Origin: an uncultured Anaerolineales bacterium
GTDB lineage: Bacteria > Chloroflexota > Anaerolineae > Aggregatilineales > Aggregatilineaceae
NCBI GenBank assembly: GCA_937135955.1
Contig: CAKZOB010000055.1
Coordinates: forward strand, 1-64,000
DNA length: 64,000 nt
Direction of reading: 5' to 3'
A program made the position numbers and the translations under genes. Positions 35,865 through 48,460 of this stretch are shown one piece after another. The notes beneath the pieces are model-generated. The model did not search any database. It saw nothing but the letters and a program-made list of their open reading frames with translations, and was not told the origin of the DNA. How positions within the stretch are numbered: the first letter of the stretch is position 1; the number at the start of each line of letters is the position of its first letter.

Positions 35865-36710
35865 TTATGGACCAGTGGTGTTGGGGCCGCCCAATGCCGC
35901 CGGATACGACCCCAGCATCTTGACCATCGAGGCCTGGCGCAACAGGTCTACCAGCGCGGCTTCGGCGGCGGGGTCTTTCCAATGGCCTTCGAAATCCAGG
36001 TAGAACCAGTATTGCCAGGGCCGCCCGCGCATGGGGCGCGACTCGATCTTGGTCAGGTTGATGTTACGCAGGGCAAACGCGCCCAGCGCGTCGTAGAGCG
36101 CGCGCGGGCGGTGACGCACGGCGAAGACCAGCGAGGTCTTGCTGGGGTCGCGGCGCTGCGCGTCTTCGTGACCGATGGCAAAGAAGCGCGTCGAATTGTA
36201 GGGGTTGTCCTCGATGCCGCTTTCCAGGGTCACCAGCCCGTAGAGTTCGCCTGCCAGCGCGGAGGCGATCACGGCTGTATGCGGCTCTGGATGTTCAGCC
36301 AGCTCGCGCGCTGCGCCCGCCGTGTCGTACGTGGCGACGGGTTCCCAGCCGCGCCGCCGCAGTGTCTCGGCGCATTGCGCCAACGCCTGCGGGTGCGACC
36401 GCACGCGCTTGACATCTTCCAGCGTTGTGCCCTCTGGAGCCAGCAGGTGATGGGTGATGGGCAACAGGTGCTCCGCCTGCACGCGGAAATCGTGCTCGAT
36501 CAACAGTTCGTAGACCTGGAAGACCGTGCCCGTCAGCGCATTTTCGACCGGCACCATGCCATGTGTGGCCCGCCCGCGCCGGATCGCATCGAACACTTCG
36601 GGAAAGGATTCGCAGGGCAGGGTCTGTGTGTCGTCGCCGAAATGGCGGCGAATCGCCTCCTCCGAGTATGCGCCGTGTTCCCCCTGAAATGCGACAATCC
36701 GTTCGCCCAT
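35865..36710 (-). CDS. pheA: Prephenate dehydratase
   Basis: A 281-residue enzyme converting prephenate to phenylpyruvate, the committed step to phenylalanine. The catalytic part (1-180) shows FQGEHGAYSEEA, GMVPVENALTGTV and the TRF motif in NSTRFFAIG. A C-terminal ACT domain (about 190-270, SLVFAVRHRPRALYDALGAFALRNINLTKIESRP) binds Phe and gives feedback inhibition. It has no chorismate mutase domain; that activity is supplied by aroH at the other end of the operon. GAGGAGA lies 6 nt before the ATG. It is the last gene of the aromatic operon. Confidence 0.94.
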   Translation of the reverse strand: MGERIVAFQGEHGAYSEEAIRRHFGDDTQTLPCESFPEVFDAIRRGRATHGMVPVENALTGTVFQVYELLIEHDFRVQAEHLLPITHHLLAPEGTTLEDVKRVRSHPQALAQCAETLRRRGWEPVATYDTAGAARELAEHPEPHTAVIASALAGELYGLVTLESGIEDNPYNSTRFFAIGHEDAQRRDPSKTSLVFAVRHRPRALYDALGAFALRNINLTKIESRPMRGRPWQYWFYLDFEGHWKDPAAEAALVDLLRQASMVKMLGSYPAALGGPNTTGP

Positions 36711-36731
36711 AGTTTTCTCCTCGGTGATCGA

Positions 36732-36759
36732 TTTTCAGTGAGCAGTTTTCAGTGAGCAG
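36732..36759. repeat. Tandem 14-mer TTTTCAGTGAGCAG x2
   Basis: Two exact adjacent copies with a partial third (CTCTCAGTAGC), in the 129-bp gap between aroQ and pheA. Related AGCAGTCAG runs occur at about 40160-40195. Confidence 0.8.
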
Positions 36760-36839
36760 CTCTCAGTAGCCTGTAATCAAGACGAAGCAGACTTTGCCAC
36801 ACAGCAACCACTTGCTGACGGCTGATCACTGGCAACTGA

Positions 36840-37268
36840 CTACTCCCTTTCCAGCAACGCCTCCAACGCCAGCCGATAGCCCAGCCAGCCCAACCCGCTG
36901 ATCTGCCCCACACAGACCGGCGCGATCAGCGAGGTGTGGCGGAACGGCTCGCGGGCGTGAATGTTCGACAGGTGCACTTCGATGGCGGGCAACCCCACGG
37001 CGCTGAGCGCGTCGCGCAACGCCACGCTGGTGTGCGTATAGCCGCCGGGGTTGAGGATCACGCCGTGCGCCCAGCCGCGCGCGTCGTGCAGCACATCAAT
37101 CAGCGTCCCCTCGTGATTGCTCTGTACGATGCGCAGCGTCGCGCCGTGCGCGGCTGCATGGGCTTCCAGCCGCGCGTTGATCTCGTCCAACGTCAGGCGA
37201 CCATAGACCTCCGGCTCGCGCGTCCCCAGCAGATTCAGGTTTGGCCCATGCAAGATCAGGATATTCAT
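36840..37268 (-). CDS. aroQ: 3-dehydroquinate dehydratase, type II
   Basis: A 142-residue enzyme of the shikimate pathway, converting 3-dehydroquinate to 3-dehydroshikimate. The type II signature [20 protein letters not shown] opens the protein, with the active-site Tyr in VYG, then [25 protein letters not shown] and [14 protein letters not shown]. Normal length (about 145). Its ATG overlaps the aroB stop (ATGA), so the two are coupled. Upstream in-frame extension lies inside aroB and is not real. Confidence 0.95.
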
Positions 37269-38329
37269 GCTCCCTCCCGCAGCGACTCCAGCACAGCGAT
37301 CACCTCGTCGCGCGGCACGCCGCCTTCGACGCACGGCGCGCCCTCCTCGCGCAGCAAGACGAAACGCGCTGTCCCGCTCTGCCACTTCTTATCGTGACGC
37401 ATGGCGTCCCACAGGGCGGCGGGTTCCAGGCCCGCGTAACGGACAGGCAGCCCTAACGCTCGCACCGCCCGCTCGACTCTCTCCGCCAGGCCGGGCGCAG
37501 CCAGCCCGCGCCGCTCCGACAGCCGTGCCGCTGCCACCAGACCCACCGCCACGGCCTCGCCGTGTTTCCAGGTGTAGCCGCTCACTCCTTCGATGGCATG
37601 GGCGAAGGTATGGCCCAGGTTCAGGTAGGCCCGCACGCCGCTTTCGAGCCGGTCTTGCTCGACCACCGCCTTCTTGACGTGCACCGCCCGCGCGATCACT
37701 TCTTCGATCGGGTCTGGCCCGCGCGTCAACAGGTGATCGATCAGCGGCGGGTCGGCGATCAGCCCGGCCTTGAGCACCTCCGCCAGGCCGCAGCGCCACT
37801 CGACCGGCGGCAAGGTGCGCAGCGTGTCCGTGTCGGCGAAGACGGCCAGCGGGTCTTTGAACGCGCCTACCAGGTTTTTGCCCTGGGGCAGGTCAACGCC
37901 GACCTTGCCGCCCAGGCTGGCGTCCACCATGGCCAGCAGGCTGGTGGGAGCCTGCACAAAGGCCACCCCGCGCATGAAGGTCGCCGCGACGAACCCGGCT
38001 AGGTCGCCGATCACGCCGCCACCCAACGCGATCACCAGCGACGCGCGGTCGCAGCCGCCCGCCAGCAATTCGCCGTAGAGGGCGGTCGCCGTGTCCAGCG
38101 TCTTGTACGCCTCGCCATCCGGTACGGTGACCAGGAACGCCTCCGGCAGACGGTCTACCAGCGCCCGACCGTAGAGCGGGGCCAGGGTATCGTTGGTGAT
38201 CACCGCCACGCGCGAAAAGCGTCGCTCTGCCACCAGGGCGGGCAGCGCGTCCGTCAATGCGCCGGGCCGGATCACGACCGGATAAGCCCCATTCGCGCCC
38301 CGGATGGTCAACTCCGCTGTCGTTTCCAC
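37265..38329 (-). CDS. aroB: 3-dehydroquinate synthase
   Basis: A 354-residue NAD- and metal-dependent enzyme that cyclises DAHP to 3-dehydroquinate. Recognisable motifs are [57 protein letters not shown] and the metal ligands in [16 protein letters not shown] at 38329 follows GGAGGTGATAG. The start lies inside the end of aroK (22-bp overlap), and the end overlaps aroQ, so the three form a tightly coupled block. Confidence 0.95.
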
Positions 38330-38835
38330 AGGTCTATCACCTCCCCGGCAACCTGCGCCGGTGTGCGGGTCGTCGTGTCAATCATATGCGGCAGGCTAGC
38401 GTAGTGAGCCGCCCGCCGGGTGTAGAGCGCCATCAGCCGCTCGCGGTCGGTGCTGAACAGGGGGCGCGCCGGATCGTCGCCCACGCGCCGCAGAATTTCG
38501 TCGAGCGACGCCATCAGGCACACGATCAGGCCGGTCTGCGCGAAAGCCTGGCGCGTGCCATCATCGAGCAGCGCCCCGCCGCCCACCGCGATCACCTGGT
38601 CACGCCGCGCCGCGATCTCCTGGCAGACCTGCGCCTCCAGCCGTCGGAAGGTCGCTTCGCCATCCTGGGCGAAAATCTGCGCGATAGTCCGTCCGGCCTG
38701 GCGCTCGATCTCGGTGTCAGTATCCACAAAGGCCAGGCCCAGCCGCGCGGCGACGATGCGCCCGATGGTGCTCTTGCCCGTGCCCATGAAACCGGCCAGC
38801 ACCAGGTTGGCAGGATAAGCGGCGTCACTCACCAT
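38308..38835 (-). CDS. aroK: Shikimate kinase
   Basis: A 175-residue P-loop kinase phosphorylating shikimate at the 3-OH. Walker A is GFMGTGKST, the shikimate-binding FVDTDTEIERQAG contains the D-x-D, GGGALL is the second binding loop, and the lid RPLF and the R-R-A-x-Y helix follow. It overlaps aroB by 22 bp. A repeat separates it from aroC upstream. Confidence 0.94.
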   Translation of the reverse strand: MVSDAAYPANLVLAGFMGTGKSTIGRIVAARLGLAFVDTDTEIERQAGRTIAQIFAQDGEATFRRLEAQVCQEIAARRDQVIAVGGGALLDDGTRQAFAQTGLIVCLMASLDEILRRVGDDPARPLFSTDRERLMALYTRRAAHYASLPHMIDTTTRTPAQVAGEVIDLWKRQRS

Positions 38836-38863
38836 CAGGGTTCCCGGTAAAGCTCTGCCTTGC

Positions 38864-38955
38864 GCTTTACCTCACCCCTGGCCGCGCTGCGCTCGGCCTG
38901 TCCCCTCTCCAGCCTGGAGGGGGCACCGGGGCGCGTCGGCACCGAATGGGGGTAA
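38864..38955. repeat. Palindromic repeat between aroC and aroK
   Basis: GCTTTACCTCACCCCTGGCCGCGC, an inner CCCCTCTCCAGCCTGGAGGGGG stem and GGGGGTAAGGT form the TACCTCACCCCC-type palindrome with an inserted CCCTCTCC stem. It interrupts the aromatic operon. Confidence 0.7.
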
Positions 38956-38960
38956 GGTCG

Positions 38961-40142
38961 TCATGTCTCATAGCCGAAACGCCAGGATACATCGTCCATG
39001 GACAGGTCGTCCAGCCGGGCCTGGCGCAGCGCGGCGAAACGCGGGCGCAGTTCGTCCAGGCTGTCCCCGCCCAGCTTGCGCAACAGCTCGTCGGCCAGCA
39101 CCAGCGCCACCATCGCTTCCAGGATCACCACGGCGCGCGGCGTGGCGCAGAAATCGCTGCGCTCGTATTCAGTATGGGCGGGCGTTCCCGTCGCCAGGTT
39201 CACCGACTCCAACGGCGTCAGCGTGGTGCTGATTGGCTTCATGGCCGCCCGCACGATCAGTGGCTCGCCGGTCGTGATGCCGCCCTCCAGCCCGCCAGAA
39301 CGGTTGCTGGTCCGACGGATGCGCCCGCTTTCGTCCAGCGTCAGCCGGTCGTGTACCTGCGTGCCGGGCCGACGGGCGTTCTCGAAGGCCGGGCCGATTT
39401 CCACGCCCTTGATGCTCGGCACGCTGCACACGGCACCGGCCAGCCGCCCCGTCAGGCGGCGGTCGTAGTGCACGTGCGATCCCAGACCGGGCGGCAATCC
39501 CAGCGCCACGACCTCGATGATCCCGCCCAGGGTGTCTTTGTCGATCTTGGCCTGACGGATGGCCGCCCGCATTCGCTCGGCGGCCTGCGGATCGGGGCAA
39601 CTCACGTCAGAAGCCAGCGCCACAGCGAAGCGAGCCGGATAGTCCGGCGGGTCGTCGGTGAAGTGCGCCGCCTCCGGGCCGATGGCGATCACGTAGCCGC
39701 CGACGGTGATGCCGAACTCGGCCAGCAGCCGCCGGGCGATTGCGCCAATGGCGACGCGCATGGCTGTCTCGCGGGCGCTGGCCCGTTCCAGCGCCAGGCG
39801 CAGGTCGCGGTAGCCGTACTTGAGCGCGCCGGTCAGGTCGGCGTGACCGGGGCGCGGCGTGCTCATGGGCGGAATGTCGCGCTGTGCCCAGTTCTTCCAG
39901 TCGCGGTTTTCGATCACCAGGGCGATTGGCCCGCCGGTCGTGTGCCCGTTCATCACCCCGCCGGTGATGCGGACCTCGTCGTGCTCGATCTGCATCCGCC
40001 CGCCCGCGCCATACCCTTGCTGGCGGCGTGCCAGATCACGGTTGATGTCGTCGGGCGTCAGGGGGACGCCGGCGGGCATTCCTTCCAGAATGCCGGTCAA
40101 CGCCGGGCCGTGACTTTCGCCCGCAGTCAAAAAGCGCAGCAC
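38961..40142 (-). CDS. aroC: Chorismate synthase
   Basis: A 393-residue FMN-dependent enzyme, last step to chorismate by 1,4-elimination of phosphate from EPSP. Motifs are TAGESHGPALTGILEGMPAGV at the N-terminus, RQQGYGAGGRM, SARETAMRVAIGAIARRLL and the signature RSGGLEGGITTGEPL with PTHTEYERSDFC. GTG at 40142 follows GGAGG at 5 nt. Length is normal. Flanked by repeats on both sides within the operon. Confidence 0.95.
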   Translation of the reverse strand: MLRFLTAGESHGPALTGILEGMPAGVPLTPDDINRDLARRQQGYGAGGRMQIEHDEVRITGGVMNGHTTGGPIALVIENRDWKNWAQRDIPPMSTPRPGHADLTGALKYGYRDLRLALERASARETAMRVAIGAIARRLLAEFGITVGGYVIAIGPEAAHFTDDPPDYPARFAVALASDVSCPDPQAAERMRAAIRQAKIDKDTLGGIIEVVALGLPPGLGSHVHYDRRLTGRLAGAVCSVPSIKGVEIGPAFENARRPGTQVHDRLTLDESGRIRRTSNRSGGLEGGITTGEPLIVRAAMKPISTTLTPLESVNLATGTPAHTEYERSDFCATPRAVVILEAMVALVLADELLRKLGGDSLDELRPRFAALRQARLDDLSMDDVSWRFGYET

Positions 40143-40237
40143 AGGTCCTCCAAAAGAGCTATGAGCAGTCAGCTATCAGCCATCAGCAGTCAGTAAGAGC
40201 GGTTTCGCAGAGGCGCTGTTCTGTGCGCCCCGCTGAT

Positions 40238-40330
40238 GTTTACCTCACCTCCCGTCTTGCTGCGTTCGGCTCGCTCTCTCCAGGTTAGCTGAGGAAGCAG
40301 CGAGGCGCGCCAGCACCGGGCGGGGGTGAG
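40238..40330. repeat. Palindromic repeat between tyrS and aroC
   Basis: GTTTACCTCACCTCCCGTC at one end and GGCGGGGGTGAGGGC at the other, with GCGAGGCGCGCCAGCACCGG inside: a diverged TACCTCACCCCC palindrome. Confidence 0.68.
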
Positions 40331-40370
40331 GGCTATTCCACGCACACTAAACCGCCGTCTTCGCCTTCCT

Positions 40371-40412
40371 CAATCCGCAATCCGCAATCCACAATTCGCA
40401 ATTCCCAATCCG
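40371..40412. repeat. Six tandem copies of a CAATYCN heptamer
   Basis: CAATCCG, CAATCCG, CAATCCA, CAATTCG, CAATTCC, CAATCCG in a row, starting 3 bp beyond the tyrS stop. A seven-base unit in untranslated sequence. Confidence 0.85.
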
Positions 40413-40415
40413 CCT

Positions 40416-41729
40416 CTATTCCACGCGCAGCAGATGGTATTGCTTCTTGCCTTTGCGCAGCACCAGAGCACGTCCTTCGAGGGCATCGGCCAGGGTGACG
40501 CGCCGCTCCACGTCGTCCACACGGACGTTGTTCAGGTACAGCCCGCCGCCTTCGATGAGGGTGCGAGCCTGCTTCTTAGAGCGTTCCAGGCCGCAGGTCA
40601 CGGCCACGTCCACCAGGCTCAGACCGTCGCCTTGCAGGTCGGCGGCGGGGACGGTGCTGGAGGGCACTTCCGCGAAGATGTCCAGCAGGTCATCGGCGCT
40701 CAGCCCTTCTAGGTCGCGCTCGCCGAAGAGCACTTCGGTCGCCTGCTGGGCCTTGCGCAGACCCTCTTCGCCGTGCACCATGCGCGTGACTTCTTCGGCC
40801 AGGCGGCGTTGGGCGGCGCGCAGGTGCGGCTCGGTGGCGACGGCGCGCTCCAGGGCAGCGATCTCGTCGCGGCTCAGCAGGGTGAAGAACTTGAGATACT
40901 GCACCACGTCGGCGTCTGGCGTGTTGATCCAGAATTGGTAGAAGCGGAACGGCGAGGTACGTCGCGCGTCGAGCCAGACCGTGCCAGCCTCCGTCTTGCC
41001 AAATTTGACGCCAGTGGACGTGGTCACCAGCGGCACGGTCAGAGCGTAGGCTTTGCCATCGGCCACCTTGCGGATCAGCTCCGTGCCCGCGGTGATGTTG
41101 CCCCATTGATCGCTGCCGCCCATCTGAAACGTGCAGCCGTAATCCAGGTACAGGCGCAGGAAGTCGTAGGCCTGCAGCAGCATGTAGCTAAACTCGGTGA
41201 AGGAGATGCCCTCGTCGCTTTCCAGGCGCATCCGCACCGAGTCCTTGGCCAGCATGTAGTTGACGGTGAAGTGCTTGCCGATGTCGCGCAGGAACTCGAT
41301 CAGGTTGAGCTGGCACAGCCAGTCGGCGTTGTTGAGCAGCAGGGCGGGATTGGGCACGCCCTCGAAGGCCAGGAAGTGCGCCAGTTGGGCCTTGATCCCT
41401 TCCAGGTTATGGGCGAGTTGTTCTTGGGAGAGCAACTGTCGCTCTTTGGCCTTGCCGCTGGGGTCGCCGATCAGGCCGGTACCGCCGCCCGCCAGCGCGA
41501 TCGGCGTGTGACCGTGCCGTTGCAGATGCACCAGCACCATGATCGGCAACAGCGACCCCACATGCAGACTGTCCGCGGTAGGGTCGAAGCCGATATAAGC
41601 GGTGACCTTCTCGGCGGCGAGCACTTCTGCTGCGCCTTCGGTGATGTTGTGGATCATGCCGCGCCAGCGCAGCTCTTCAAAGACATTTTCGGCGATGTCC
41701 GTCTTTGCAGCGGTTGTCGGGTGACTCAT
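40416..41729 (-). CDS. tyrS: Tyrosyl-tRNA synthetase
   Basis: A 437-residue class I synthetase charging tRNA-Tyr. The HIGH-like motif is HVGSLLP in the Rossmann fold, the tyrosine pocket has [10 protein letters not shown] and the KMSKS-like loop is KFGKT, typical of the bacterial TyrS group. A C-terminal S4-type RNA-binding domain (about 365-437: [23 protein letters not shown]) follows. I place the start at ATG 41729; a GTG at 41750 overlapping the aroE stop is also possible. A synthetase inside the aromatic operon fits attenuation that responds to charged tRNA. Confidence 0.94.
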
Positions 41730-41746
41730 GATTCGCTCGTTCCTGT

Positions 41747-42583
41747 TCACGGGTTACTGTGCAAACCAGCCAGGGCAGCCTGGGCCGCCTCTGCCATTAT
41801 AGCGAGCGGCGGCGCAATCCCCAGCCATTGCGCAAAGGATAGCGCCCCCTGCCGGACGAGCATCCCCAGCCCGCCGAGCGCCCGCGCCCCTGCCTCTTCC
41901 GCCAGACGCATCAGCCGCGTCACCGGCGGGTTGTAGACCAGGTCGTAGAGCACGGCGTGCGACGGGAAGGGCACCCCCTCCGGCCAGGGCGACTCGTCTG
42001 TGCGGGGGAACATGCCCACCGGCGTGCAGTTGACGATCAGATCGGCGGCGAGCGCCAGCAGCGCCAGATCGTCGTATCCGGCCACGGGCCAGCCCGCCAG
42101 CGCGCGCCCGTCGGCACCAGCACGACTGATCAGCGCGATCCGCGCCGCGCCCAGGTGCGTCAGCGCGTAGACGACGGCCCGCGCGCTCCCGCCTGTGCCC
42201 AGCACCAGGCAGGTTGCGCCGCGCACGACCACCCCCTGCGCCTCCAGATCGTCGGCGAAGCCCTGCCAGTCGGTGTTGTCGGCGAGCAGAGCGCCGTCGG
42301 GCCGCACGACCAGCGTATTGGCCGCGCCGATCTCACGCGCTGCTGGCGTAGCGGCGTTCACCTGCGGCAGTGCCAGCGCCGCCCCCTTGTGCGGGATGGT
42401 CACGTTGAAACCGCGGTAGCCCGCCGCGAGCAAGCGGGGCACTTCTTCGGCGAAGCGGTCGGGCAGCACGGGCAGGAGATCGTAGCGCCAGTCCAGACCC
42501 AGGGCGCGGAAAGCTGCGTTGTGCATGGCTGGCGAGACGCTGTGCGTCACCGGCCAGCCGAGCAGCCCCACCCGCTCAGTCAT
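41747..42583 (-). CDS. aroE: Shikimate dehydrogenase
   Basis: A 278-residue NADPH-dependent enzyme reducing 3-dehydroshikimate to shikimate. The substrate domain has [19 protein letters not shown] and FNVTIPHK (catalytic Lys in PHK), then the catalytic Asp in ADNTDWQGF. The Rossmann domain has [15 protein letters not shown], and NCTPVGM follows. ATG at 42583 overlaps the end of aroA by 8 bp. Confidence 0.94.
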
Positions 42584-43895
42584 GCGCGCACCACTCCATC
42601 TCCGCGCCAAGCGCCTGCATGGTCTCGGCGAAGCCGGGGAATGAGTCGTGCGCGCAGGCGGCGTCTTCGATCATCGTCTCGCCCTCCGCCACCAGCCCAG
42701 CGACGGCCAACGCCATCGCCACGCGGTGATCGTCGTGCCCGTGCACTGCTGCGCCGCGCAGACGCTGCGGCCCAAGGACGCGGAAGCCATCCGGACGCTC
42801 CTCGATCTCCGCGCCCATCTTGCGCAATTCGGCGGCCATCACCGCGATGCGATCGGTCTCCTTGACGCGCAACTCCGCCGCGTCGCGCACGACGGTTTCG
42901 CCGACGGCCTGTGTAGCCGCCACCATCAGCACGGGAAATTCATCAATGGCGCGCACGATCAGGTCGCCGCCTACTTCCGTCCCGCGCAGGTCGGCCCGCC
43001 GGACGAGCAGATCGGCCACCGGTTCGCCGCCCTCCAGCCGTTCGCGCTCGCAGAGCACGGGGCCGCCCATGGCCGCCAGAATGTCCAGCAGACCAGTGCG
43101 CGTCGGGTTGACGCCCACGCCGGTCACGCGCACGTCGCCATCACCGGCCAGCAACGCCGCGACCAGCACGAACGCCGCCGACGAAGGATCGCCGGGCACG
43201 GTCAGGTCGAGCGGGCGCAAGGCCGGGCCAGGGGTCAGGGTGACGATGAACCCGTTCACGTGCACCTGCGCGCCCATCGCCCGCAACATGCGCTCAGTGT
43301 GATCGCGCGCTGGCCCTGGCTCGCTGACGGTCGTCGGGCCGTCGGCGAACAGCCCTGCCAGCAGGATGCCGCTCTTGACCTGCGCGCTGGCGACCGGCAG
43401 CGTGTGCGCTACGCCGTGCAGCGTCGCCGGGCGGATGTGTAGCGGGGCGTGCCCGTCGGTGTCGGCGATTTGCGCGCCCATCCGGCGCAGCGGTTCGGTG
43501 ATGCGGCGCATGGGGCGGCGGCGCAGTTGCTCGCTGCCGTCCAGCGTGCTGGCGAAAGGTTGCCCGACCAGCACGCCCGCCAGCAGGCGCATGGCCGTCC
43601 CTGCGTTGACACAGTCGAGCGGGGCAGCGGGTGCCTGCAAGCCACCCAGGCCGCGCCCGTGCACGGCGAGCGTCGTCTCATCCGCCCGCTCGACGGCGAT
43701 CCCCAGCGCCTGGATGCAGCGCCGAGTCGCCAGCGTGTCACCAGCAGGCAACCAGCCACGCACCCGGCTGACGCCATCGGCCAGCGCCCCCAGGATCAGC
43801 GCGCGGTGCGACAGCGACTTGTCGCCGGGGACGCTCACTGTCCCGCGCAGCGCCGCGCCAGGATGCACGCGAAGGGCGGTCGGTTGGCCTGTCAT
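42576..43895 (-). CDS. aroA: 5-enolpyruvylshikimate-3-phosphate synthase
   Basis: A 439-residue two-domain enzyme adding the enolpyruvyl group of PEP to shikimate-3-phosphate. Signatures are VPGDKSLSHRALILGALADG (Lys/Ser binding S3P), NAGTAMRLLAGVL, DGSEQLRRRPM, and the second block LRVKETDRIAVMAAELRKMG and DDHRVAMALAVAGL. GAGGTGA is 5 nt before the ATG. The NAGTAMR form resembles the class I, glyphosate-sensitive pattern. A repeat lies upstream, between it and tyrA. Confidence 0.95.
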   Translation of the reverse strand: MTGQPTALRVHPGAALRGTVSVPGDKSLSHRALILGALADGVSRVRGWLPAGDTLATRRCIQALGIAVERADETTLAVHGRGLGGLQAPAAPLDCVNAGTAMRLLAGVLVGQPFASTLDGSEQLRRRPMRRITEPLRRMGAQIADTDGHAPLHIRPATLHGVAHTLPVASAQVKSGILLAGLFADGPTTVSEPGPARDHTERMLRAMGAQVHVNGFIVTLTPGPALRPLDLTVPGDPSSAAFVLVAALLAGDGDVRVTGVGVNPTRTGLLDILAAMGGPVLCERERLEGGEPVADLLVRRADLRGTEVGGDLIVRAIDEFPVLMVAATQAVGETVVRDAAELRVKETDRIAVMAAELRKMGAEIEERPDGFRVLGPQRLRGAAVHGHDDHRVAMALAVAGLVAEGETMIEDAACAHDSFPGFAETMQALGAEMEWCAHD

Positions 43896-43946
43896 GGCGT
43901 CACCTCGCGGGCGATCAGGGGCATGGGCCAGCGTGGTGGCCGTTGT

Positions 43947-44046
43947 TTCACCTCACCCCCAGCCTCGCCGTGCTCGGCTCGCCCCCTCTCCATGCATGGA
44001 GAGGGGGCAACGAGGCGCGTCAGCGCCGAGTAGGGGTGAGGTGAAG
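43947..44046. repeat. Palindromic repeat between tyrA and aroA with a perfect 28-bp core
   Basis: TTTCACCTCACCCCCAGCCTCG at one end and AGGGGTGAGGTGAA at the other. At the centre, 43981-44008 is a perfect palindrome of 14-bp arms, GCCCCCTCTCCATG and CATGGAGAGGGGGC, with no loop. It sits inside the aromatic operon. Confidence 0.8.
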
Positions 44047-44139
44047 CAATGCCCGGCAAAGGCCAGAATAATCCCGTTCGCAGGGGCGTAGGGCCATACC
44101 CCCCTGCAAGCCTGACCCATAACGGGAAGGATACAGCGC

Positions 44140-45000
44140 TCATGTGATCAACCGCTCCCCATAGGTTGCCGTGTAAGCGCGGCGCGCCGCCACAATGGCG
44201 TTCAATTCCTGCTCCAACTGCTCTGGCTCGTCCAGCAGCGCTTCCAGGCGATCCAGATGCTCGCGCAGGCGGGCGGCAGTCTCGCGCAACAATTCGGCGT
44301 TGGTGCTGAACATGCCAACGATCATCGCTGCGTCGGTGCGGGCCAGGCGCGTCGCCCCGTCGAACCCGCCCGCTGCCAGTTCCAGCAGCGCCGAATCTTC
44401 TGCCGCGCCGTCCATGGCCAGGCGCATCAGCGCGAAGGAGAGCAGGTGCGGCAGGTGACTGGTCAACGCGGTCAGGCGATCCTGGCGGGTGCGATCCATC
44501 CAGAGCGGCTGTGCGCCCACCGCGCGCACCAGCGCTTCGGCGATCAGGCGGGCTTCGTCGGTGGTGCGGCGCGTTTCGCACAGCACGAAGCGCGCACCCT
44601 GGTAGAGGGTGGGGATGGCGTTGCGGTAGCCGTTCTCGGCCAGACCGCACATCGGATGCCCACCAACTGCCATGACCTCCGGCGGCAGGCGATCCAGCGC
44701 CTGGCAAATGCGCGTCTTGGTGCTGCCCAGGTCAATGACCAGCGCGCCAGGGCGGAGGAGTAACTGCGGGATCAGGCCGATGATCACGTGCGTGGGCACG
44801 GCCAGCACCACCACATCGGCCTCGGCGACCGTCCCCGGCCCATCAATCACACCCCGCCCGGTCGCGTCTTCGATCACGCCCGGCGCAATGTCTTCAGCGG
44901 TGAGGCGGCCCACCTTGCCGCGCAGGGCCATCGCCAGCGAACCACCCATCAACCCCAGACCAACGATGTGCACCGTACAGGTAGCAAAGGAAGCGTCCAT
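44140..45000 (-). CDS. tyrA: Prephenate dehydrogenase
   Basis: A 286-residue NAD-dependent enzyme that oxidatively decarboxylates prephenate to 4-hydroxyphenylpyruvate for tyrosine. The Rossmann motif is VGLGLMGGSLA. DLGSTKT, the substrate His in GGHPMCGLAENGY and LTSHLPHLLSFAL complete the family pattern. ATG at 45000 is one base after the aroF stop. Unlike many homologues it has no C-terminal ACT domain, so control may rely on the operon attenuator. Confidence 0.93.
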   Translation of the reverse strand: MDASFATCTVHIVGLGLMGGSLAMALRGKVGRLTAEDIAPGVIEDATGRGVIDGPGTVAEADVVVLAVPTHVIIGLIPQLLLRPGALVIDLGSTKTRICQALDRLPPEVMAVGGHPMCGLAENGYRNAIPTLYQGARFVLCETRRTTDEARLIAEALVRAVGAQPLWMDRTRQDRLTALTSHLPHLLSFALMRLAMDGAAEDSALLELAAGGFDGATRLARTDAAMIVGMFSTNAELLRETAARLREHLDRLEALLDEPEQLEQELNAIVAARRAYTATYGERLIT

Positions 45001-45001
45001 A

Positions 45002-46039
45002 TCAAACCTGTTGCAGTTGCGGTTCGGCGACCTGTCGTCCAACGACTGGCGCAAGCTGACGCACCCTGGCCACCAGTTCGGCGAAACGCTCCGGTCTGAG
45101 CGACTGTTGCCCATCGGAGAGCGCCTGTTCCGGCTGCGGGTGCACTTCTATGATCAGGCCGTCCGCGCCGGCAGCGACGGCGGCCAGCGCGACGCTCTCG
45201 ACATATTCCCAGCGCCCGACACCATGACTGGGGTCGGCGATGACGGGCAGGTGCGAAAGGCGCTTGAGCACAGGGATGGCGTTGATGTCGAAAGTGTTGC
45301 GCGTGTAAGTCTCGAAGGTGCGGATGCCGCGCTCGCAGACCATGACGCGCATGTTGCCGTGACTCAGGATGTACTCGGCGGACATCAGCAGTTCTTCGAT
45401 GGTGCTGCTCATGCCGCGCTTGAGCAAGACCGGATGCTGACTCTCGCCCACGGCGTGCAGCAGCGTGTAGTTCTGCATGTTGCGCGCGCCGATCTGCAAC
45501 ACATCGGCATACTGGCAGACGAGCGGCACAAGCTGCGGGTCCATCACTTCGGTCACTACCGGCAGGCCGGTAGCCTCGCGGGCCTCGGCCAGGTAGCGCA
45601 AGCCCTCTTCACCCAACCCCTGGAAGGCGTAGGGCGACGAGCGCGGCTTGAAGGCTCCCCCGCGCAGGGCCGTCGCCCCCGCTTCGCGCACGGCATACGC
45701 CGTCTCGATGATCTGTTCGCGGCTCTCCACCGAGCACGGCCCGGCGATGATGGCCAGGTTGGGGCCGCCGACCATGATGCCGTTGAGCGGGATGAGCGTG
45801 TCGTCGGGGTGATATTCGCGGCTGGCGATCTTGAAGGGATGCGAGACAGGCATCACCGACTGCACACCGGACATCAGGGCCAGTTGTTCGCGGTCAATGG
45901 GGCGGCCCCGCCCGATGACGCCGATGATGGTGCGCTCTTTGCCTTCCGACAGGTGCACGTCATAGCCCATGGCGCGGATGCGGGCAATGACATCGGAAAT
46001 TTCGCGGGCGGTGGCGTTGATGTTCATCACGACGATCAT
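45002..46039 (-). CDS. aroF: DAHP synthase (3-deoxy-7-phosphoheptulonate synthase), type I-beta
   Basis: A 345-residue enzyme joining PEP and erythrose-4-phosphate, the first step of the pathway. The N-terminal ~75 residues ([28 protein letters not shown]) are a ferredoxin-like regulatory domain that binds Tyr or Phe in this subclass. The TIM barrel follows: [63 protein letters not shown] and [14 protein letters not shown]. It is downstream of aroH and coupled to tyrA. Confidence 0.95.
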
Positions 46040-46091: not shown

Positions 46092-46496
46092 CTAAACAGG
46101 TGTCTGTAAGGCGCGGTCGGGGCGCAGAGCCTGCGCCTCGCGCAGGTAGACATGGCGAATCTGCTGAGGGCTGCGGGTGGTGTTCCACAGCACCAACACG
46201 CGCAAACACATGGGCAGGCCGCCGGGCACGGCCATCTCATGGCCGCACAGGATCGCCACGTCGTGCCAGCCCAGTTCACGAGCGGCCACAGCGGGGTATT
46301 CGGCGTTCAGGTCAACGGTGGTGGTGAAGAAAACCGCACCGATGTCGTTCACGTCAATCTGATTGGCCTCTACCAGGGCGTGCAGCAGCTCGTGCGTGGC
46401 GCTGCGGATGGCATCGGGCGTGTTGGCCTCCACGGTAATCGCCCCGCGCACGCCCAGGCAACGCAAAGGTGAGGCGGAAGGCTGCGGCGAAGTCAC
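46092..46496 (-). CDS. aroH: Chorismate mutase, AroH class
   Basis: A 134-residue monofunctional chorismate mutase of the B. subtilis trimeric barrel type, converting chorismate to prephenate. Family motifs are CLGVRGAITVEANTPDAI (active-site Arg), ALVEANQI, FTTTVDLNAEYPAVAARE and CLRVLVLWNTTRS. GTG at 46496 was chosen because AAGGAG lies 10 nt upstream; a TTG three codons earlier would be almost on the Shine-Dalgarno sequence. It is the first enzyme gene after the attenuator of the aromatic operon. Confidence 0.92.
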   Translation of the reverse strand: MTSPQPSASPLRCLGVRGAITVEANTPDAIRSATHELLHALVEANQIDVNDIGAVFFTTTVDLNAEYPAVAARELGWHDVAILCGHEMAVPGGLPMCLRVLVLWNTTRSPQQIRHVYLREAQALRPDRALQTPV

Positions 46497-46531
46497 GGTC
46501 TGCAAACTCCTTTCGTGGCGCGATCCTGAAC

Positions 46532-46565
46532 AAAAAAGGGCGCTGAGCCTGTGCTCAACGCCCTT
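46532..46565 (-). terminator. Attenuator terminator of the aromatic operon
   Basis: On the minus transcript, AAGGGCGTTGAGC (46553-46565) pairs with GCTCAGCGCCCTT around an ACAG loop, followed by a run of six T (46532-46537). The 13-bp stem has one G-U pair. It stands between the leader-peptide stop and aroH. A competing partner for the first arm, CTGAGCGTGCCTT (46606-46618), lies upstream. Confidence 0.9.
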
Positions 46566-46588
46566 GTGTCTGCGTTTCTGGTTGGTCG

Positions 46589-46720
46589 CTAGCTGACACC
46601 GGCAGAAGGCACGCTCAGACCCGCCCTATGGACGCCCCCAAAGTAATAATAAAAGCTAAACCAGACCCAGGCGCTGCCAGGGCTGATCAGGTGCTGCGAA
46701 TGGGGACGAATGCCGGTCAT
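46589..46720 (-). CDS. Aromatic-amino-acid leader peptide (attenuator)
   Basis: A 43-codon frame whose residues 18-27 read WVWFSFYYYF: two Trp, three Phe and three Tyr among ten codons, preceded by HLISPGSA and followed by GGVHRAGLSVPSAGVS and TAG. It lies 25 nt after the predicted transcription start, with GGGAG about 13 nt before the ATG, and 84 nt before the enzyme gene aroH. The product has no likely function of its own. Translation speed through the aromatic codons should decide whether the downstream terminator or the antiterminator forms. The start is the first ATG on the predicted transcript. Confidence 0.9.
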   Translation of the reverse strand: MTGIRPHSQHLISPGSAWVWFSFYYYFGGVHRAGLSVPSAGVS

Positions 46721-46751
46721 AGCGTTGCTTGCTCTCCCAGTGACACCGAAC

Positions 46752-46780
46752 AGCTTAGCACAACGGCGGGGATGTGTCAA
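46752..46780 (-). promoter_or_regulatory. Promoter of the aromatic operon
   Basis: On the minus strand, TTGACA (46775-46780), a 17-bp spacer ending in TGC, then TAAGCT (46752-46757): consensus -35 and an extended -10. The transcription start should be near 46745. Confidence 0.85.
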
Positions 46781-46858
46781 TAAGTCCGCGGGCAATTCGA
46801 TTTGGGATCATTGCACGAAAAAGGGTGCGCCGCTAAGGCGTGTTGTGCACTTTGTTCG

Positions 46859-47131
46859 CCCTCATCCCCCGGCCCCTTCGCCCGCGCTGCGGGCGAAGGG
46901 GAGCGCTCGTGCGAGAGACAGCAAGTCCCCTCGCCCCGCGACGCAGTCGCGAGGGAGAGGGGATGCAGGGGTGAGGGGCAGCAGACCGCCTGACCTCACC
47001 CCCGCTCGGCGCTGGCGCGCCTCGCGCCCCCTCTCCGCGTCGGAGAGGGGGCAAGGTCAAGCCGAGTGAAGCGAGGCTGGAGGTGAGGTAAAGCAGCAAG
47101 TGGTTTGATGCAATCTCCCTGCCCCTTCCCA
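46859..47131. repeat. Composite repeat between the aromatic operon and the TPP riboswitch
   Basis: A stem of 13-bp perfect arms CCCCTTCGCCCGC / GCGGGCGAAGGGG; then CCGCGACGCAGTCGCGAGGGAGAGGGG; then GACCTCACCCCCGCTCGG with an inserted CCCCCTCTCCG/CGGAGAGGGGG stem and GAGGCTGGAGGTGAGGTAAA; then GTGGTTTGATGCAATCTCCC. It ends directly before the -35 of the thiamine promoter. Confidence 0.75.
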
Positions 47132-47133
47132 GT

Positions 47134-47162
47134 TTGGCAGCCCTGGCCGGACGTGCTATAAT
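47134..47162 (+). promoter_or_regulatory. Promoter of the TPP riboswitch-thiY unit
   Basis: TTGGCA (47134-47139), a 17-bp spacer ending TGC, then TATAAT (47157-47162). A near-consensus extended -10 promoter; transcription should begin near 47169. Confidence 0.88.
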
Positions 47163-47182
47163 CGCATCAGAACAATCACAAA

Positions 47183-47277
47183 GCGCACTGGGGAGCTCGA
47201 CGAGATCGGGCTGAGAGGGTATCTGTTGGATACCGACCCATGAACTTGATCCAGGTAATGCTGGCGTAAGGAGTGTT
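47183..47277 (+). ncRNA. TPP riboswitch (THI box)
   Basis: Conserved THI-box pieces appear in order: ACTGGGGAGC, the core GGGCTGAGAGGG (47208-47219), a P3 stem GGTATC...GATACC, ACCCATGAACTTGATCCAGG, TAATGCTGGCGTAAGGAGTG. It binds thiamine pyrophosphate and normally turns expression off when TPP is abundant. About 150 nt separate it from the thiY start. I see no obvious poly-U terminator there, so control may be by sequestering the AGGAGGAG ribosome site or by a structure I cannot resolve. Confidence 0.93.
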
Positions 47278-47428
47278 GGCTGATGTGCGGTTGTTGCCTC
47301 AGTCTTTCCCCTCTTCGCCCCAACCGTAGGCAGAGTTTAGGGTGCTACAGTCCGGTGCGCTCGCTCCTCAAGCTGCGTCTTTGTGACCATCGTTGGCATT
47401 GGCCGCAGTGAGTTCCAGGAGGAGAGAG

Positions 47429-48460
47429 ATGTTGCATCGTCTGTGGTTACTGACAGTCGTTTTTATGGTGTGCATCACCGTTGGTGTCTCCGGCTTCGGA
47501 ACCGCTCCAACACAAGCGCAAGAGCCGGGATTGGTGGATGTCCGTTTGCCAGAACGTCAAACCGTTCGTTTTCAACTCGATTGGACGCCGAACACCAATC
47601 ACATCGGCGTCTATGTCGCGCAGGCATTGGGCTTCTATGATGACGTCAATCTCGATGTTCAGATTGTCCGACCAGACGAGACCGACCAGACCGTGATCCA
47701 GGCGGTTGAGAGCGGCGCTGTCGAGTTTGGCATCAACTACCAGGAATACACGACCTTCGCCATTGCTGAAGGCGCGCAGATAGTCTCAGTGGCAGCGATC
47801 ATCCAGCACAACACGACTGGCTTTGCCAGCTATGCCGGTCGCAACCCTGTGACGCGCCCCGCTGACCTAGCCAACCTGACTTACTATGGGGGTGGTAAGG
47901 TCGCAGAAGCCATCATCTCGCGTTTGGTGGCCTGCGACGGCGCGCAATGGCAACCTCGCTACGCTCAGCTCGGCGTCGTCGATCTGGTGGAAGTACTGCA
48001 AAGGGGCGATGCCGACTTTGGCTGGATTTACTATGGGTGGGAGGGGATCGAAGCCGAGCTTCGCGGCGTCGATCTCGATGTGATCATGTTGCGCGACTAC
48101 CCTGACTGCATTCCCGACTACTACACCCCCTTCATCCTGACCTCGCGCCGCCTGGTCGAAACCGAGCCGGATGTGGTGCGGGCCTTCGTTCACGCAACTG
48201 CGCGTGGTTTCCAGGTTGCCATTGACTATCCGCTGGCAGCAGCCGAACTGTTAATCGCCGCTGAGCCACAGCTCGACCCGGAGCTTGTGCGCGCCAGCGC
48301 CCTGTGGCTCGCACCACGCTACCAGGAAGACGCGCCGCGTTGGGGAGAGCAGCGTGCTGAAGTCTGGCAGCGCTTCACGGATTTTCTCGTCCAGGAGGGC
48401 CTGCTGGACACGCCCATTGATGTCAGCCGCGCCTTCACAAACGACTTTTTGCCAGGGTAA
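47429..48460 (+). CDS. thiY: ThiY-like periplasmic binding protein for a thiamine pyrimidine precursor
   Basis: A 343-residue exported binding protein of the NMT1/THI5-like family. The signal peptide covers about 1-35 (LLTVVFMVCITVGVSGFG...AQA). The mature domain begins with the family signature FQLDWTPNTNHIGVYVAQALGFYDD and has GINYQEYTTFAIAEGAQIVS. AGGAGG precedes the ATG. The TPP riboswitch upstream makes uptake of formylaminopyrimidine or HMP the likely role. Usual partners ThiX and ThiZ are not next to it; the next gene is on the other strand. Confidence 0.87.
   Translation: MLHRLWLLTVVFMVCITVGVSGFGTAPTQAQEPGLVDVRLPERQTVRFQLDWTPNTNHIGVYVAQALGFYDDVNLDVQIVRPDETDQTVIQAVESGAVEFGINYQEYTTFAIAEGAQIVSVAAIIQHNTTGFASYAGRNPVTRPADLANLTYYGGGKVAEAIISRLVACDGAQWQPRYAQLGVVDLVEVLQRGDADFGWIYYGWEGIEAELRGVDLDVIMLRDYPDCIPDYYTPFILTSRRLVETEPDVVRAFVHATARGFQVAIDYPLAAAELLIAAEPQLDPELVRASALWLAPRYQEDAPRWGEQRAEVWQRFTDFLVQEGLLDTPIDVSRAFTNDFLPG

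Follow-up and report, generated by a model that had tools for sequence, protein, structure and literature searches.

Conserved aromatic-codon leader and terminator upstream of a shikimate/Phe/Tyr operon in Anaerolineae: a very probable ribosome-mediated transcription attenuator

The window, the whole 64,000-nucleotide stretch of DNA from an uncultured Anaerolineales bacterium that we analyzed, contains on its minus strand a short reading frame crowded with Trp, Phe and Tyr codons, which lies between a promoter and a strong terminator and is followed by eleven genes of aromatic amino acid metabolism. This arrangement raises the question whether the frame is a leader peptide that couples transcription of the genes to the supply of aromatic amino acids, and if so, of which ones. 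The elements concerned are the following.

46775-46780, minus strand: -35 hexamer TTGACA, identified by sequence, aligned and kept throughout family f1, the family of the window
46752-46760, minus strand: extended -10 element, TGC followed by TAAGCT (46757-46752), 17-nt spacer from the -35 hexamer
46734-46738, minus strand: probable Shine-Dalgarno sequence GGGAG, kept as GGGAGA in the genus
46589-46720, minus strand: putative leader peptide ORF MTGIRPHSQHLISPGSAWVWFSFYYYFGGVHRAGLSVPSAGVS, 43 codons, with ATG at 46720 and stop codon UAG at 46591-46589, kept in relatives
46640-46669, minus strand: candidate control codons for WVWFSFYYYF (2 Trp, 3 Phe, 3 Tyr), from the translation
46607-46626, minus strand: predicted region 1:2 hairpin GGGCGGGUCUGAGCGUGCCU, protector and competitor of the antiterminator, from folding
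46595-46618, minus strand: region 2, candidate antiterminator strand, with alternatives 46618-46606 (that of the initial annotation) and 46604-46595
46536-46565, minus strand: intrinsic terminator, regions 3:4, 13 bp with a loop of 4 and a T-run
46092-46496, minus strand: aroH-type chorismate mutase (TIGR01796), first gene
45002-46039, minus strand: aroF, DAHP synthase (NF006421/TIGR01361)
35865-45114, minus strand: tyrA, aroA, aroE, tyrS, aroC, aroK, aroB, aroQ and pheA, by NCBIfam models, aroQ by Pfam PF01220

The consensus promoter, the 43-codon frame and the 13-bp terminator that had been described in the initial annotation are all present. The extended -10 element is kept in a TGTGCTAAGCT-like form in 10 members of family f1, and promoter scores of at least 9 were obtained for 56 of 86 leaders, against about 11 expected from shuffles; judged by sequence conservation, a promoter precedes the leader. 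Promoter and Shine-Dalgarno sequence are both conserved within the family of the window, with a distance between GGGAG and ATG of 13 nt in the window and of 7 nt in congeners; many distant leaders have a weak Shine-Dalgarno sequence or none. The terminator folds with -24.4 kcal/mol (z -6.7 compared to shuffles), and no other strong terminator-like site occurs on the minus strand between 47200 and 35566.

Downstream of the leader, HMM searches identified chorismate mutase (with an inferred GTG start and the Shine-Dalgarno sequence AAAGGAG), DAHP synthase, prephenate dehydrogenase, EPSP synthase, shikimate dehydrogenase, TyrRS, chorismate synthase, shikimate kinase, dehydroquinate synthase, type II dehydroquinase and prephenate dehydratase, ten of the eleven named by NCBIfam and aroQ by Pfam. 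The cluster genes make the aromatic amino acids that the leader encodes, tyrS being included among them, and the order aroH (pheA) aroF tyrA aroA aroE (tyrS) aroC aroK aroB aroQ is common among relatives. The eleven genes that the initial annotation had placed under the leader are thus confirmed as genes; that the leader controls all of them we infer from their order, the conservation of this order and the lack of internal terminators.

A single GC-rich region, read by itself, could mislead, and the aromatic frame might have come to lie next to a terminator by chance. For 142 relatives, the DNA preceding aroF was examined, and a leader was scored where the best short ORF had six or more aromatic residues in ten. 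Such an ORF occurred in 92 of the 142 regions, while 1.6 were expected from dinucleotide shuffles, and the chance of mere coincidence is therefore negligible. The opposite strand, taken as a control, yielded 6 such ORFs in the same regions. A hairpin terminator followed the leader in 91 of 92 cases (median -20.3 kcal/mol), with its start at a median of 72 nt past the last aromatic codon in these 91 leaders, and with the leader stop codon at a median of 45 nt past the same codon. A terminator of -12 kcal/mol or stronger was found within 180 nt of the aromatic cluster for 90 of 92 leaders, compared to 28 of 397 random windows nearby. Two hallmarks of an attenuator are thus in place, a short ORF with codons for the products of the pathway and an intrinsic terminator between this ORF and the first gene. 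Of 40 further genomes sampled from the class but outside the order, 18 were positive, and these came from many families. For about half of the class-wide regions outside the order, the leader was not detected within 1.6 kb of aroF, and some of these missing leaders are probably explained by extra genes that precede aroF. The aromatic identity of the residues is kept between genera, with variation in the order of Phe and Tyr and in the codons. Absence of a W/F/Y-rich frame or terminator at orthologous operons had been named in the initial annotation as the outcome that would speak against it; when looked for, both were found to recur across the class.

Aromatic leaders ahead of aroF were also seen outside Anaerolineae, in Calditrichota (L095, L101 and L104), a Clostridiales MAG (L092) and an Oscillochloris MAG (L097). 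The L101 leader contains FYYYGYYYYF, and the terminator sequences of the Calditrichota leaders are unrelated. In several Anaerolineae (G044, G244, G382, G429 and others), aroF itself is present in tandem adjacent copies.

Attenuation further requires that the position of the ribosome decides between alternative RNA folds. Taken alone, duplex formation between region 2 and the terminator 5' arm gives a weak energy signal (mean z -0.56), which is why we turned to a model that follows the stall position and is compared to local controls. In this model, the ribosome hides the RNA up to 12 nt past the first base of the A-site codon, and the readout is the probability that, as long as the 3' arm has not yet been made, the terminator 5' arm is paired to RNA upstream of it. 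The mean of this probability over leaders was about 0.62-0.66 for an A site within the aromatic codons, about 0.3 after the ribosome had moved beyond region 2, and 0.25-0.27 for a ribosome at the stop codon. In the comparison with shuffles, sequestration of the 5' arm had a probability of 0.63 for stalled ribosomes and of 0.25 at the stop codon, and the drop was 0.32, compared to 0.07 in shuffles (Wilcoxon p=1.5e-12, n=71 non-redundant leaders). Local shuffles of positions +9 to +45 shrank the drop (p=6e-8 for dinucleotide shuffles, p=5e-8 for shuffled codon order) and removed a part of it, not all. A comparison of own with swapped arms located a match to the 5' arm at +12 to +40 past the aromatic codons (p=0.003; peak at +18, with the class-wide peak given as +18 to +40), and a second class-wide signal, of similarity to the 5' arm and matching to the 3' arm, was detected at +6 to +28. 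These are the positions expected for regions 2 and 1, respectively, of a four-region attenuator. Covariation was judged between families, because the terminator is nearly invariant inside f1.

The folding comparison with and without a ribosome-masked leader, as suggested in the initial annotation, thus gave a dependence on the stall position that exceeds the shuffled controls, and its idea that stalling frees the antiterminator strand and arrival at the stop codon masks it is backed statistically by the modeled drop over the 71 leaders. The swap test is modest (z -2.9) next to the terminator, which served as its positive control (z -23.6). For this reason, we consider the predicted antiterminator switch as supported class-wide, not as proven.

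For the window itself, the picture is less sharp. The pairing of 46606-46618 with the first terminator arm that had been proposed exists, with an RNAduplex energy of -10.8 kcal/mol, and is part of the minimum free energy fold when the A site of the model ribosome is at a Tyr codon; taken by itself, the window sequence forms an antiterminator duplex that is no better than those of shuffles, and the antiterminator reaches significance only when the 71 non-redundant leaders are taken together. When the A site is at the last Phe codon, the best fold combines the 1:2 hairpin (46626-46607) with a different antiterminator, in which 46604-46601 and 46599-46595 pair with 46562-46559 and 46570-46566. 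Both pairings are plausible in the model, and the footprint geometry suggests that a ribosome at the stop codon would mask the second one completely. The profile of the genus is noisy (probabilities of 0.38-0.66 for stalled ribosomes and 0.24 near the stop), and at least two competing antiterminator pairings are predicted for it.

Together, these data suggest a model in which the leader of the window is, very probably, a ribosome-mediated transcription attenuator of the shikimate/Phe/Tyr operon. At the level of sequence, it appears to have every feature expected of one. RNA polymerase would start about 25-30 nt ahead of the leader ATG, with a ribosome following behind. Under scarcity of charged tRNA-Phe and tRNA-Tyr, and in this clade probably of charged tRNA-Trp as well, the ribosome would stall in WVWFSFYYYF and cover region 1, leaving region 2 to pair with region 3, the 5' arm of the terminator, and transcription would run on into aroH to pheA. 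With adequate charging, the ribosome would move on to the UAG codon, region 2 would be masked or remain in its pairing with region 1, and transcription would stop at the 3:4 terminator, which can then form. The strength of the terminator on its own and the weak Shine-Dalgarno sequences of many relatives would also fit a terminator that is governed in another way, by an RNA-binding protein or as a site of constitutive partial termination, with the ORF being incidental. However, an incidental ORF explains neither why the aromatic codons recur at a fixed spacing and match the products of the pathway nor why the modeled fold depends on the stall position beyond controls, and we consider this explanation improbable.

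A sensor that reads tRNA or a metabolite directly would be another way to regulate the terminator, and the genome does contain one for a neighboring branch of the pathway. A T-box (RF00230, 101.8 bits) lies upstream of trpE at L159:3046-3372 (minus strand, contig C19 of the genome of the window), and by our reading of the alignment, the triplet after its GAA is UGG. T-boxes were found upstream of trpE at 15 of 20 loci tested in the order, the genome of the window included. At the aro leader, no T-box covariance match was obtained in a search for which the trpE T-box served as positive control, no Rfam family matched at E 0.1, and the window scan returned only a TPP riboswitch elsewhere. Control of the aro operon by a T-box or metabolite riboswitch, which these searches led us to discard, is thus very improbable. 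A Trp-rich leader at trpE was considered as a reason for the variable presence of Trp codons in the aro leaders; none that was convincing was found in about 70 trpE upstream regions of the order, where the T-box was found instead at 15 of the 20 loci tested. In this scheme, the sensor for Trp biosynthesis would be a T-box, and that for the common pathway a leader peptide.

Which amino acids act through the leader is less certain. Phe and Tyr codons are present in all 91 leaders, and Trp codons in 32, kept mainly in the family of the window. Phe/Tyr sensing would therefore be the general rule and triple aromatic sensing a clade-specific elaboration, so that the earlier proposal of a leader that reads all three end products finds its codons in the clade of the window, not across the class. 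In the leader of the window, Phe is encoded by TTT in 3 of 3 cases and Tyr by TAT in 2 of 3; the operon's own genes favor TTC (66:16) and TAC (46:14). Codons do not prove sensing: the AroR leader of C. glutamicum has Tyr codons, yet is reported to respond to Phe only (PMC11802643). This precedent, the lack of Trp in 59 of 91 leaders that all have Phe and Tyr, and the separate T-box of trpE in the genome of the window and in relatives would all fit an attenuator that acts on limitation of Phe and/or Tyr alone, with the two Trp codons as passengers too far upstream to matter. We regard this as a serious possibility, if a somewhat less than even one. Against it, W-x-W-F is kept at a constant place in most of f1 and in L019 and L020 of family f3, which suggests selection, and placing the A site over the Trp codons gives a similar modeled sequestration (in f1, 0.55-0.60). 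To the reading that one leader combines the charging states of the three aromatic tRNAs in its control of the whole shikimate/Phe/Tyr operon, we give about even credence; an ancient, class-wide Phe/Tyr attenuator would then have gained Trp codons in one Anaerolineae family, in cells that read Trp biosynthesis by T-box. The leaders of L019 and L020, and their AroF proteins (77% identity), are closer to f1 than those of other f3 members are, and a transfer of the operon together with its leader is possible.

The leader shares with the trp, pheA, pheST, his and ilvGMEDA leaders of Proteobacteria an ORF with control codons, competing 1:2, 2:3 and 3:4 pairings, which are predicted here, and an intrinsic terminator. 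It differs from them in lacking an Rfam match (no hit to leader families of the Trp/His/Leu/Thr type at E up to 10), and the classical aromatic ones read one amino acid. Leaders with several kinds of control codons are known, for example ilvGMEDA (Ile/Val/Leu), and the remark in the initial annotation that known leaders usually sense one amino acid understates such precedents. We know of no classical leader attenuator that governs the entire shikimate pathway.

The closest parallel is AroR of C. glutamicum, a Phe-Tyr-Phe leader of aroF that is reported to act by ribosome-mediated attenuation (Neshat et al., 2014, reviewed in PMC11802643; also PMC4046766). Both are aromatic-codon leaders ahead of a DAHP synthase operon. 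AroR, however, belongs to another phylum and another operon, has three aromatic codons (5-9 here) and no Trp, and is reported as responsive to Phe only. The leaders are likely convergent, and they are too short for inferring descent. The uORFC-13-1 motif, described as a U run that codes for at least one Phe and as occurring before aroF in Acholeplasma and environmental sequences only (PMC8632094), likewise combines a uORF with Phe codons, a terminator and a downstream aroF; unlike the present leaders it is reported from outside Chloroflexota, the comparison being one of descriptions, and Rfam 15 gave no such match. T-boxes (RF00230) also sense tRNA charging and control aromatic genes, but read the tRNA directly and without translation. 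According to a survey of 2010, demonstrated cases of regular leader peptides were until then confined to Proteobacteria and Actinobacteria, to which the survey added Firmicutes (Naville and Gautheret, PMC2965389). In a search of open-access full texts, we found no leader-peptide attenuator described for Chloroflexota.

The attenuator is, in our judgment, real and conserved, and its mechanism is of a known kind; what sets it apart from described systems is its lineage, its mix of Phe/Tyr(/Trp) codons and its predicted control over a whole shikimate operon. Its presence across deep-branching Chloroflexota bears on the age of the mechanism. The natural range of F/Y/W composition and spacing, over dozens of genera, provides a ready data set for asking how attenuators that respond to several amino acids weight each of them. 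The trpE T-box and the aro leader in one genome point to a division of labor between two tRNA sensors, and if triple sensing holds, two mechanistically different sensors would divide a single pathway between them.

Divergent from the aro leader, at 47134-48460 on the plus strand, lie a promoter (TTGGCA-N17-TATAAT), the TPP riboswitch (47179-47289) and a gene for an NMT1/THI5-like protein. Palindromic repeats (GGTGAGGTAAA.. / CCTCACCCCC..) are interspersed in intergenic gaps (38852-38957, 40225-40331, 43933-44041, 46849-46986 and others). Three of them are inside the aro operon, in the tyrA-aroA, tyrS-aroC and aroC-aroK gaps, and a related one is found directly upstream of the leader promoter.
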